NCBI RefSeq assembly: GCF_003697845.1
Contig: NZ_RDQE01000001.1
Span: 310,001 to 374,000, forward strand
Length of the DNA stretch: 64,000 nucleotides
Origin: Halobellus captivus
GTDB lineage: Archaea; Halobacteriota; Halobacteria; Halobacteriales; Haloferacaceae
Reading direction: 5' to 3'
In this document: in pieces, positions 36,835-40,252 of the stretch
How positions within the stretch are numbered: position 1 is the stretch's first letter
Layout: each line of letters starts with the position of its first letter
Notes under the pieces: model-generated
The model's input: only the letters and a program-made list of their open reading frames with translations
Database searches by the model: none
Told to the model about the DNA's origin: nothing
Made by a program: the position numbers and the translations under genes

Positions 36835-37647
36835 TCACTCCTGAGTCACTGACGACTCCCGTATCACCGTCGAGAGCGGCGTGGCCGCGCCCACGAGCGA
36901 CTCGAACCGCTCGTCCGCCCACTCGACGACCGTCTCGTCCGTGGTCTCGAAGGCGCAGCGTGGGTTGTTTCGCTCGTCGTAGGCGACCACGCAGGCGACG
37001 TCGTCGTACCGGAACAGCCCGTACTCGATGGGTTCGGCGGAGACGTACACCGTCGCACCCTCGTCGGACAGGGCCCGGTCGGTCGCGGGCCCGAACTCCG
37101 CGATCGACGTCTCCAACACCTCCCGGTCGATGATCAACTCGATCTCCGCGCCCGCGTCGAGTGCGGCCCCGGCCGCCTCGTTGTACTGGGTCGTGACGAT
37201 CGGCGAGACGGCCCTGACGTCCGATCCGCACGTGTCGCGGATCAGCTCCACGACGCGGTCGAGCGCGGCCAGCGGGTCGCGGTCGGTCGCCGCGGTGAGA
37301 TCGCCCGTCTCGAGCCCGGCCGCGGGAAACGCCGCGCCTGCCCGCTGTAAGTCGGCGGCGAACCGCCCGTACCGGTCGCCGCGGTCGATCTCCGAGAGCA
37401 GGTCCTCGTAGGCGGCGTGAACGCGCTCGCCCGTCGGCGTCACGTGGTAGGCACCGTCGCGTTTGACGACCCACCGACGCTCGCGGAATCCGGCCAGGAT
37501 CCGCTGGACGGTGGTCCGCGTCGCGTCGACCGCGTCGGTCAGGGACGCCGGCCGTCGCGGGTTCCGGTCGAGCGCCCGGAGTATCGCGATCCGTACCGGC
37601 GATCCGGCGAGGTATCGTGCGTCGTCGTGTCCGCTGTCGGACGCCAT
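36835..37647 (-). CDS. Winged-helix regulator with FilR1-like C-terminal domain
   Basis: 270 residues. The N-terminal winged helix (SPVRIAILRALDRNPRRPAS...ATRTTVQRILAGFRERRWV) is MarR/ArsR-like. The C-terminal domain (about 115-265, with VSPIVTTQYNEAAGAALDAG and the repeated VYVSAEPIEYGLFRYDD) resembles the DUF1724/FilR1 ligand-binding domain of archaeal regulators. The target is unknown; the nearest upstream genes are the small peptide gene and the CHAT gene. Confidence 0.82.
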   Translation of the reverse strand: MASDSGHDDARYLAGSPVRIAILRALDRNPRRPASLTDAVDATRTTVQRILAGFRERRWVVKRDGAYHVTPTGERVHAAYEDLLSEIDRGDRYGRFAADLQRAGAAFPAAGLETGDLTAATDRDPLAALDRVVELIRDTCGSDVRAVSPIVTTQYNEAAGAALDAGAEIELIIDREVLETSIAEFGPATDRALSDEGATVYVSAEPIEYGLFRYDDVACVVAYDERNNPRCAFETTDETVVEWADERFESLVGAATPLSTVIRESSVTQE

Positions 37648-37794
37648 CGTCTCTCACTGAGATACGGACACCCGCGTGATAATCGTGTCGTCGGAGCGGA
37701 CGCCGCCGCGAAGGCAACGCGGACGGAGTACCCGATCCGACGAGAAACGTGTCTTTGCGACGGGGAGAAGCGAGTTTCGCGACGACGTGAATCG

Positions 37795-37848
37795 CGGTCC
37801 CGTGTCGGATCGCGGTCCCGTGTCGGATCGCGGTCCCGTGTCGGATCG
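37795..37848. repeat. Three exact tandem 18-bp units
   Basis: CGGTCCCGTGTCGGATCG is repeated at 37795-37812, 37813-37830 and 37831-37848 in the non-coding space between the regulator and the small peptide gene. Confidence 0.95.
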
Positions 37849-37983
37849 CCGCCTCCGCATCGTCGTCGTGGAACCGCGTGAGCGGTCGAGTAAATTTCTT
37901 TCGCAATATATGAAGTTCAAACATCCGAGACGTGCCACTTCGCATAAGACTAGAACTTAATCTCACGCGCATTTTGGTGTAAT
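37849..37983. other. A/T-richer promoter region of the small peptide gene
   Basis: The region 37885-37983 is clearly A/T-enriched, including CAATATATGAAG and the element ACTTAATC (37955-37962) about 26 bases before the peptide ATG. The left part of the gap (37648-37794) also holds the promoter of the leftward regulator gene. Confidence 0.5.
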
Positions 37984-38115
37984 ATGCCCGAAAGCATTGC
38001 GGCATACCTGGCAGAGCACCCGAAGATGACCGGCGTCCTGTTCACCGCCCTGCTGCTGTTGACGCAGGCGGCCCCCGCATCGGCGAACGCTGTTCAGGCT
38101 ACTCCTGGTCCCTGA
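37984..38115 (+). CDS. 43-residue hydrophobic peptide with signal-peptide look
   Basis: MPESIAAYLAEHPKMTG, then VLFTALLLLTQAAPASA, then NAVQATPGP. The LAE(H/N)P-K/R-MTGVLF core resembles short haloarchaeal proteins I remember from several genomes (possibly DUF7503), usually without function. The hydrophobic stretch is long enough for one membrane helix and ends in an AxA-like cleavage site; cleavage would release a peptide of about ten residues. It has its own TATA-like element and its last 17 bases overlap the 3' end of the convergent CHAT gene. Confidence 0.7.
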   Translation: MPESIAAYLAEHPKMTGVLFTALLLLTQAAPASANAVQATPGP

Positions 38116-40252
38116 GCGGGAATAGTTCGTCACTCCAGTAGAGCTCTTCTTGGCGGAATATCGGAAGCGTCTCCAGCTGAAGCCATTCTTCGAGCTCTTC
38201 TTCGGAAATGTCTCCGACGTGAGCCACCGACGGCACGGTGTAGTTAGCCTCGGATTTCGTCGTTACCGGTCGATAAAGAGTGCCGATACCATACGGTCCA
38301 TTTGGATATGCCTCTACTGTGAGATCCCAAATCGAGGATTCTGTCGAAGTGATCTCACCGACGACCGCTACCCCGCTCCGACTCTGACATATCGTGGTCG
38401 CGCCGTCGCCGACGACGATGTACTGGTGGCCGGTGAGCAGTTCCCGTTTCGCGACGTGGAGCGCGGTCCGGAGGTTGAACCCGCTGTTCATCAGTCGGGC
38501 GACGATCCGGCCGAGCGTCGTCGCCGGCGAGTTCGCGACGTCGCTGAGCGTGACGATCCCGCCGCGGCTCCCGCGGTGGATCAGGGCCTCCCCCTGCTCG
38601 TAGGACTGACACGCGTTGAGGAGGAACGCGCTGACGCTGACCCGGAGGTCCTCGCGTGTGAGATCGAGGTAGTCGTCGGTACACTGCATCCCTCGATCGT
38701 CGACGTGGCCGACGTAGTGGAGGAAGTCCACGTCCGAGGCGAGTACGTCGCGCATCTCCGCGCAGGTGAGGTCGTGGCGAACCTCGATGTCGAACTGGAC
38801 CATGTCCCGGAGCCCGTAGAGCTCCGACACCTTCCCCTCCTCGCGCATCTGCTCGTCGTTACAGACGACGAGCACCGAGATGCGCGACTGCTCGACGGCC
38901 CCCGTCTCCAGCCGGCGGCGGTAGGCGTCGAGCGTGGCCTTGTTCGCGTCGAGGGGAACCCCGTCGCCGACCCAGGCGTGCTCTACCGTCTCGACCGGGT
39001 CGGGACGGACGAACTCGGCGGACCCGAGCGCAGCTCCGTGGTCGCCCGGGGCGTCGGCCCCGCGCGGTCCGGCCCCGCGGCGAGCGGGCTCGGCGCCGGC
39101 GTCGGGACCCTCCTCGACGCCCGTTCCGCCGCGGACGAACTCCGCGGGGCCCGGCTCGGGCGCTCGGAGGAACCCGATCCCGCCGCCCGGACCGGTCTCG
39201 GCCGGCGTGGCCGTCTCCGGCGACCGAACGATGGAGAGCTCTCCGGCCACGAACGGGAGCGCTTCGACGTTGTCGGGATCGGGACGGATATCGGTCGTGA
39301 GCGTCCATTTCGGGAGCTCCGACTCGATCCGCTCGAACGGCACCTCGAGGTACGCTCCGAGCCGCTCGGCGAGCGGAGCCTCGTACAGCGTGGCCCAGTC
39401 GAGGTCGGCGACGGTCGCCTCCCGCTCGTGGAGGTCGACCGGGTAGAACCCCTCCGTCCGGGCGATACAGTCGAAGTGGAACGACTGCCGGAGGGCCTCG
39501 GCGGCCCGCCGCTCGACGTCCGGTTCGAGCGAGTGTATCCAGCCGTCGCCCTCGATCCGCGTCTCGGAGCCCGGAACCACCTCGGCCGCGAAGTAGTACG
39601 CGAGCGGGACGACGGGGTAGACGTCCCGGTAGGAGGGGGGGACCACGATCCGCACGCCGCTTTCGGGTCGCTCGATCCGGTCGGGCACGTGGAACGCCGT
39701 TCCCGGCTCGATGAGGGGCGGGTGTCCGCGGAGCGTCGGGAAGGAGCGCTCCGGGCTCGTCGTCTGGAGGGCCGATCCGAGGTGCGAGATCGCGTCCATC
39801 AGCGACTCCGGGTCCGTCGGCGTCGTGATCGTCCCCGCCGGCCGCTGATGGAGCGACCGGAATCCGAGGGTCACCTCGGTGGCCGTCTCGAGGTCGATCC
39901 GGGTGGTTCGATCCGTCGTCGTGACGGAGAACCCGGACTCGAAGTGCGAGTAGAGCTTCGTGGGCGCGGGGTCGATACCGAGGTGGTACTCCCCCGCGGG
40001 CATCGTGAGGTCGTCGTCGCGCGCGAGCAGGGCTCCGTCGCTGGATCGGACCTCGACGACCGCGATCCGCGGGATCTCGATGGAGCCGGTCTCGACGGTC
40101 ACGCTCGCGTCGACCGGAAAGTAGTGGTCCTCGACCGGGGAGGGCCGCGGGGTGACCGGCCGGTCGGTGTAGAGTTCGAACTGCGTGTTCTCGATGTGGT
40201 CCGTGACCGTGAGACCGGGCGCGTCACACAGCGGGTCGATGTCGATGCTCAT
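38099..40252 (-). CDS. CHAT-domain (caspase-like) protein
   Basis: 717 residues. The C-terminal third is a CHAT protease-like domain: catalytic His516 in FLHYVGH and Cys548 in LLNACQSYEQG, followed by SRGGIVTLSDVANSPATT and ALHVAKRELLTGHQYIVVGD, all in family order. The N-terminal 330 residues are beta-rich, with no named domain. A low-complexity Gly/Pro/Ala/Glu linker spans about 345-405. CHAT proteins act as peptidases in bacterial and archaeal stress, death or defence pathways (for example TPR-CHAT with CRISPR); the target here is unknown. A palindrome covers the promoter. Confidence 0.85.
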   Translation of the reverse strand: MSIDIDPLCDAPGLTVTDHIENTQFELYTDRPVTPRPSPVEDHYFPVDASVTVETGSIEIPRIAVVEVRSSDGALLARDDDLTMPAGEYHLGIDPAPTKLYSHFESGFSVTTTDRTTRIDLETATEVTLGFRSLHQRPAGTITTPTDPESLMDAISHLGSALQTTSPERSFPTLRGHPPLIEPGTAFHVPDRIERPESGVRIVVPPSYRDVYPVVPLAYYFAAEVVPGSETRIEGDGWIHSLEPDVERRAAEALRQSFHFDCIARTEGFYPVDLHEREATVADLDWATLYEAPLAERLGAYLEVPFERIESELPKWTLTTDIRPDPDNVEALPFVAGELSIVRSPETATPAETGPGGGIGFLRAPEPGPAEFVRGGTGVEEGPDAGAEPARRGAGPRGADAPGDHGAALGSAEFVRPDPVETVEHAWVGDGVPLDANKATLDAYRRRLETGAVEQSRISVLVVCNDEQMREEGKVSELYGLRDMVQFDIEVRHDLTCAEMRDVLASDVDFLHYVGHVDDRGMQCTDDYLDLTREDLRVSVSAFLLNACQSYEQGEALIHRGSRGGIVTLSDVANSPATTLGRIVARLMNSGFNLRTALHVAKRELLTGHQYIVVGDGATTICQSRSGVAVVGEITSTESSIWDLTVEAYPNGPYGIGTLYRPVTTKSEANYTVPSVAHVGDISEEELEEWLQLETLPIFRQEELYWSDELFPLRDQE

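Follow-up and report, generated by a model that had tools for sequence, protein, structure and literature searches.

A DUF7503 small protein and a CHAT-like clan-CD protease are encoded tail to tail as a conserved gene pair in haloarchaea

In a stretch of 64,000 nucleotides from Halobellus captivus (contig NZ_RDQE01000001.1), called the window throughout, the gene of a small signal-peptide-like protein runs tail to tail into the gene of a much larger protease-like protein. This locus raises the question of whether such a pair constitutes a functional unit and, if so, what a protein of 43 residues could do for a protease. A preliminary description had given the positions of both genes and their 17-base convergent overlap exactly, and had proposed an undescribed two-gene module flanked by a regulator gene and an operator-like palindrome. 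The locus is laid out as follows.

36835-37647: regulator gene with the Pfam domains HVO_A0261_N and FilR1_middle
37890-37983, + strand: AT-rich stretch upstream of the peptide gene, with the TATA-like AGAACTTAAT about 30 bases before the ATG
37984-38115, + strand: DUF7503 small protein, 43 residues, signal-peptide-like, partner of the protease (Pfam PF24335, E 5.3e-19)
38099-38115: tail-to-tail overlap of the peptide and protease genes, 17 bases (window coordinates)
38099-40252, - strand: CHAT-like protease of predicted clan CD (caspase/gingipain/separase fold), 717 residues (AlphaFold2 model and structure matches)

The small reading frame (37984-38115, + strand) encodes MPESIAAYLAEHPKMTGVLFTALLLLTQAAPASANAVQATPGP, a clear member of the Pfam family DUF7503, to which no function is assigned; it scores 68 bits against a gathering cut-off of 27 and is the sole copy in its genome. 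Conservation at the codon level, on which the proposal of a module had been made to depend, is indeed found: Halorubrum sequences give a pN/pS of 0.17 over the signal-like part of the peptide and of 0.46 over its variable tail. A promoter-like AT-rich box was found ahead of 93/107 peptide genes and, over a longer stretch, ahead of 28/107 protease genes; random 73-base stretches gave a background of 4%. Judged from the family match, the pN/pS values and the promoter-like box, the 43-residue frame is to be regarded as a real gene. Four parts of the peptide can be distinguished by aligning 140 distinct peptides.

38005-38028, + strand: conserved motif Y-L-x-x-H-P-K-M, residues 8-15, predicted to lie on the cytosolic side (140-peptide alignment)
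38032-38061, + strand: hydrophobic core GVLFTALLLL, residues 17-26 (conserved columns)
38077-38085, + strand: A-x-A signal-peptidase-like site, residues 32-34 (alignment; putative cleavage)
38086-38112, + strand: variable 9-residue tail NAVQATPGP with a Gly-Pro end (alignment)

The family core follows the consensus YLxx[HN]P[RK]MxGVLFTxxLLL[ST]QAG, and is succeeded by the A/V-x-A site and by about nine variable, uncharged residues. Pro13 is invariant (140/140), K or R at position 14 and the H or N of the motif are each kept in 137/140 peptides, and G17, L19, F20 and Q28 are present in 131, 126, 130 and 125 of the 140, respectively. At the predicted cut site, position -3 is A or V in 135/140 and position -1 is A or G in 138/140, which is the pattern of Sec signal peptides; the n-region and the core are far more conserved than signal peptides require. 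The preliminary description had expected cleavage at an AxA site to release about ten residues. The site stands, and a cut between PASA and N would give nine residues. The tail is mostly 9 residues long (7-10 in 131 of the 139 measured), rich in A, G, N, S and T, and almost free of charge. It ends in Gly-Pro in 124/145 peptides, however far away the protease gene lies. This ending was considered as a by-product of gene overlap and the idea rejected, the GP end being equally common across gap classes (39/43, 43/50, 22/27, 18/21). A SecM-like secretion-arrest reading was dropped as well, because the adjacent conserved gene is convergent and thus out of reach of cis control by a stalled ribosome.

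The co-occurrence survey that had been set as a test of the module drew on about 110 haloarchaeal genomes, namely the DUF7503 loci of 80 genomes (about 70 genera) and 29 same-genus protease loci. Both genes were located by profile, and a pair was defined as convergent genes within 300 bases. In this sample, 141 of 145 DUF7503 genes are paired with a protease relative. The converse count in named genomes gave a convergent peptide at 76/80 protease loci, these being the best-scoring 80 and leaning towards Halorubrum. The proposed module is thus supported, and the linkage is far more general than the window alone would tell, extending to nearly all haloarchaea examined. That the peptide and protease genes are functionally linked is almost certain.

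The exceptions are few. Two of the four unpaired peptides (L115, L163) are displaced and lie 0.8-1.4 kb from a protease, a third (L174) stands beside a C-terminal protease remnant, and the last (L172) is a weak match with no protease nearby. Furthermore, in two genomes of genus g76 lacking DUF7503 at the Pfam level, a diverged convergent peptide (MSLI..RRW.QNNPQ...TTPGP or TSGP) occupies the same place, 1 and 11 bases from the protease gene. The retention of position, orientation and GP end argues strongly in favor of the pair as a unit. These peptides, missed by the Pfam DUF7503 model, are encoded at L183 5129-5299 and L189 3555-3728, both on the - strand, and share an NNPQ motif and the GP end.

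Two explanations that dispense with any contact between the proteins can be weighed on these data. Inheritance alone might keep the genes together, and within Halorubrum the entire locus is syntenic. Across genera, however, a comparison of 107 paired loci gave a single other widely kept neighbour, DUF7504 (PF24336), which lies on the protease strand directly upstream at 43/107 (~40%; for example L064 6355-7107), no further widely recurring family being found among them. The diverged g76 pair moreover retains both layout and GP end, and neighbourhood by inheritance only, already contradicted by the 141/145 linkage across genera, is extremely improbable. Alternatively, the overlapping 3' ends could act at the RNA level only, as antisense control. 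The coding sequences do overlap in 43/141 pairs, but 98/141 do not, and the unit persists even where 60-260 bases separate the genes. The overlap itself is not conserved, the gap ranging from -88 to +260 in the 141 pairs (median +3, mode -4). An exclusively antisense link was rejected since most pairs do not overlap, and is considered very unlikely.

Over the whole class, DUF7503 is present in 296/341 genomes and protease relatives in 317/341, and none of the 20 listed protease-less genomes contains an above-cut-off DUF7503. The peptide gene occurs once in most genomes and up to six times in some, the protease gives up to 18 alignment matches within one genome, and such pairs are found repeatedly in genomes with several copies, and also on plasmids. 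A peptide that depends on the protease would be expected to leave few orphan peptides and many orphan proteases, as is seen here. In a broader sample of 295 genomes from the phylum, the profile matched beyond the class only in four genomes of one family (G348, G357, G366, G375), whose remote protease relatives (L299-L302) have no convergent peptide. Within the class, four genomes of genus g13 (G080, G135, G173, G240; loci L185-L188 and L201-L204) carry an intact paired-type protease at which no recognisable peptide was found; two other g13 genomes (G290, G335) have DUF7503. At L201, the downstream stretch codes for a GPEMPEPLPSAVM-type repeat in place of the peptide.

What kind of protease is the larger partner? 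Its predicted parts are the following.

39311-40252, - strand: N-terminal region, residues 1-314, modelled as a beta-sandwich (1-136) and an alpha/beta part (148-312) (pLDDT 95.7)
38384-38902, - strand: catalytic domain, residues 451-623 (predicted structure)
38705-38707, - strand: codon of catalytic His516, invariant in 136/136 paired proteases
38609-38611, - strand: codon of catalytic Cys548, invariant in 136/136 paired proteases

The His516/Cys548 dyad recognized in the preliminary description is present, both residues forming invariant columns in an alignment of 98 protease sequences. Its placement in a full CHAT context was too strong: the Pfam CHAT model (PF12770) gives 13.5 bits (E 0.051), below the cut-off of 24, so that the protein is termed CHAT-like here and not a Pfam CHAT member. 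No NCBIfam or PADLOC model matched the 717-residue protein. Its AlphaFold2 model, computed with the 98 own-locus sequences as alignment, reached a pLDDT of 90.1 and a pTM of 0.90, and residues 315-659 match gingipain R (4ief) with a Z of 19.8 (rmsd 2.9 over 244 residues), followed by separase (Z 17.1), SAVED-CHAT (16.1) and Csx29 (13.9). By its modelled fold and the order of His and Cys, the protein is assigned to the clan-CD cysteine proteases, an assignment made on the fold and not on a Pfam model. The model combines a pseudo-caspase and a caspase domain, the arrangement described for Csx29 (PMC10028731). A PDB profile search with the protease returned SAVED-CHAT only, at a marginal E of 0.72.

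The N-terminal region contains the near-invariant motif SPERxxPTLRGHPP and the invariant residues R169, P179, P205 and R265. In the structure search made, residues 1-136 showed a weak likeness to beta-sandwich domains (best Z 8.1) and residues 148-312 no match; none of the searches run matched the region as a whole confidently to a known fold. In the catalytic domain, M469 and E472, just after its first strand, are invariant. Basic-specific clan-CD enzymes have an acidic S1 residue at this place, and the correspondence may offer a lead.

The closest named relatives, at 68-86% identity, are almost all from Halorubrum. The dyad is also kept in 31/33 unpaired proteins, both losses belonging to one Halorubrum paralogue (L002 1420-3594 in G000:C32, and L195). 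In this paralogue the N-terminal region is retained (40% identity over residues 13-411), but neither catalytic residue is, and no DUF7503 gene adjoins it; it is therefore a pseudo-enzyme. A second haloarchaeal subfamily (L190-L199), mostly with an NACGS motif, has an intact dyad and no peptide partner, and largely forms its own clade.

The best explanation of the pair, put forward tentatively, is that the two genes constitute one haloarchaea-wide unit, in which a caspase-fold protease of the cytosol is joined by a small client of its own, membrane-bound or exported, as either substrate or pseudosubstrate. The signal-like segment would carry the peptide into the membrane and leave YLxx[HN]P[RK]M facing the cytosol, while the 9-residue tail may be trimmed off on the outside by a signal peptidase. 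The catalytic domain would recognise the conserved core of the peptide. In the simplest form, the protease would cut at or near the HP-R/K-M step; alternatively, the peptide might sit at the catalytic domain as a pseudosubstrate brake. Either way, the membrane or export state would be coupled to protease activity, and so perhaps to a stress response or cell death; the signal would enter through the N-terminal region and, in genomes that have it, through the DUF7504 protein encoded upstream.

A client role is supported by the linkage (141/145 and 76/80), the dyad in 136/136 paired proteases and the fold; the conserved part of the peptide is also its core and not its tail. A comparison of identity distances, expressed as partial rho with bootstrap 95% ranges, points in the same direction. 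Distances between peptide cores track those between catalytic domains, with a rho of 0.22 (0.12-0.32) given residues 1-136 and of 0.28 (0.20-0.36) given residues 137-314, and core divergence does not track the N-terminal region. Tail distances track no protease region clearly, the best value being 0.08 with residues 137-314. This difference favours recognition of the core by the catalytic domain. The top column couplings, G42-G521 and F20-F510, exceed shuffles and lie near the active site in sequence; both are single-clade changes. G521, beside the active His, is altered in one clade of 7, and all 7 tails are without GP. Too few pairs were available for an independent-pairs test of co-variation.

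Several points nevertheless weigh against a client. The co-variation consists of single-clade events and of distance correlations that unequal saturation can produce. The four g13 genomes keep an intact paired-type protease without a recognisable peptide. In addition, diverged peptides carry Q where the others have R/K, which means that the P1 residue need not be strictly basic.

A pheromone comes close behind as an explanation, and is on balance somewhat unlikely. The exported precursor would be cut after AxA, and the 9-residue, Gly-Pro-ended peptide would re-enter or act on the producing cell and switch the protease via its N-terminal region, the protease taking the place of a transcription factor. 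The -3/-1 rule, kept in 96-99% of the peptides, and a tail of fixed length, fixed end and variable middle are consistent with such a message, as is the abundance of orphan receptors. Mapped on the protease tree, the presence or absence of the GP end changes 7 times against 16.8 by shuffling, which indicates that pairs are inherited together, and position 174, in the N-terminal motif, is other than L or M in 9/18 non-GP partners and in no GP partner. A precedent exists in the streptococcal Rgg/SHP group III, where a small signal-peptide-like gene lies downstream of, and convergent with, the receptor gene, in a single copy in most genomes and in several in some (PMC3679016). The Rgg receptor is a transcription regulator whereas the partner here is a protease, and no homology was seen; the likeness is one of layout and copy number. 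RRNPP receptors are defined by TPRs with a DNA-binding domain, and the present candidate has a caspase fold and no Pfam TPR or HTH match. A pheromone is disfavoured by the signal-like part, far more conserved than the supposed message, by the variation of the tail even among close species, and by tail distances that are uncorrelated with the N-terminal beta domain and only marginally correlated with residues 137-314.

The small size and membrane-like character of the partner, the invariant Pro at the membrane edge and the co-conservation of both genes would also suit an uncut peptide that serves as a membrane anchor of the protease, or that keeps it blocked until damage to the cell occurs. A tether would have no need of the conserved cleavable-type site, however, and some genomes keep the protease and miss the peptide, which makes a tether or inhibitor clearly unlikely. 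The peptide also resembles small membrane toxins in size and hydrophobicity, and caspase-fold proteases arm death effectors in other systems; the pair could accordingly be read as an abortive infection or cell death unit in which the protease checks or arms a membrane-active toxin. The distribution over 296/341 genomes is that of a core gene rather than the patchy one of defence islands, and no PADLOC model of known anti-phage systems matches the protease, so a toxin is quite improbable.

Known CHAT proteases offer the nearest parallels to a protease with its own client. The window protease shares with SAVED-CHAT and with Csx29 of Craspase the predicted pseudo-caspase and caspase fold and the His-Cys dyad of the clan-CD CHAT/separase/gingipain group. 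It differs from them by an N-terminal region of its own, apparently in place of TPR or SAVED, and by a 43-residue peptide as partner. Where type III-E Csx29 (TPR-CHAT) has a TPR domain, the window protein gave no Pfam TPR match, and its N-terminal model is beta-rich and then alpha/beta. In Csx29-Csx30 and in gasdermin-CHAT systems, a CHAT protease is likewise found beside a dedicated client gene. Unlike Csx30, a large soluble protein, or the gasdermins, which form large pore proteins, the partner here is a membrane-like peptide of 43 residues, encoded convergently and not in an operon. The conserved neighbour is this peptide, and not a gasdermin pore protein.

A very strong activity of the caspase-like type was reported in 2012 from Haloferax volcanii, whose authors knew of no homologous gene; it was tied to salt stress and death and prefers Asp substrates (PMC3615174). 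DUF7503 is present in H. volcanii, where it served as a control, and in Haloferax elongans, larsenii and mucosum a single locus contains DUF7504, protease and peptide. The pair is thus a candidate source of this gene-less activity, which is haloarchaeal and of caspase type, its origin in a window-type protease being conjectural. In the same study, trypsin-type (Arg) substrates were not cut by H. volcanii extracts (PMC3615174), which argues against a simple Arg-specific enzyme, or against the protease being active there. The unit may involve the long-sought archaeal 'caspase', in a role that is conjectural; the peptide would be a first handle on the possible control of such a protease in archaea, and DUF7503 thereby gains a partner. 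A bolder and rather unlikely proposal is a haloarchaea-wide signalling system in which an exported 9-residue GP-ended peptide, or its membrane-held precursor, directly switches the caspase-fold protease behind the caspase-like activity and stress-linked cell fate. The parts of the pair are of known kinds, and neither the pairing nor a constant partner of DUF7503 was found described in the literature searched. That search returned no mention of DUF7503 or DUF7504, nor of 'CHAT domain' with haloarchaea or H. volcanii; subscription papers lay mostly outside its scope, which makes such absence weak evidence.

The surroundings of the pair are more variable. The DUF7504 profile gave marginal KaiC matches only against the PDB (E ~0.3). 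The window also contains an AstE-like gene, which is present in 31/31 Halorubrum-group loci, as its FilR1-type regulator is in about 25/31, and neither recurs across genera. The flanking regulator of the preliminary description is accordingly a real gene that accompanies the pair in most Halorubrum only; regulator and operator were rejected as members of the unit, reflecting Halorubrum synteny only. The palindrome is not conserved, none being evident in the Halorubrum consensus of the peptide promoter. Nor was a shared operator found upstream of both genes, CCATTGG-type palindromes being restricted to a subset of the peptide promoters in other families. An operator-like palindrome of the CTAATGG-N6-CCATTAG type lies between the TATA box and the peptide start at L079, L075, L076, L070 and L139, which belong to other families. 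At L127 (4837-5129, G012), the peptide gene is present in two tandem copies encoding an identical protein before one protease. In the window itself, an 18-base unit (ATCGCGGTCCCGTGTCGG) stands three times in perfect tandem repetition at 37791-37849, between the regulator and the peptide promoter.
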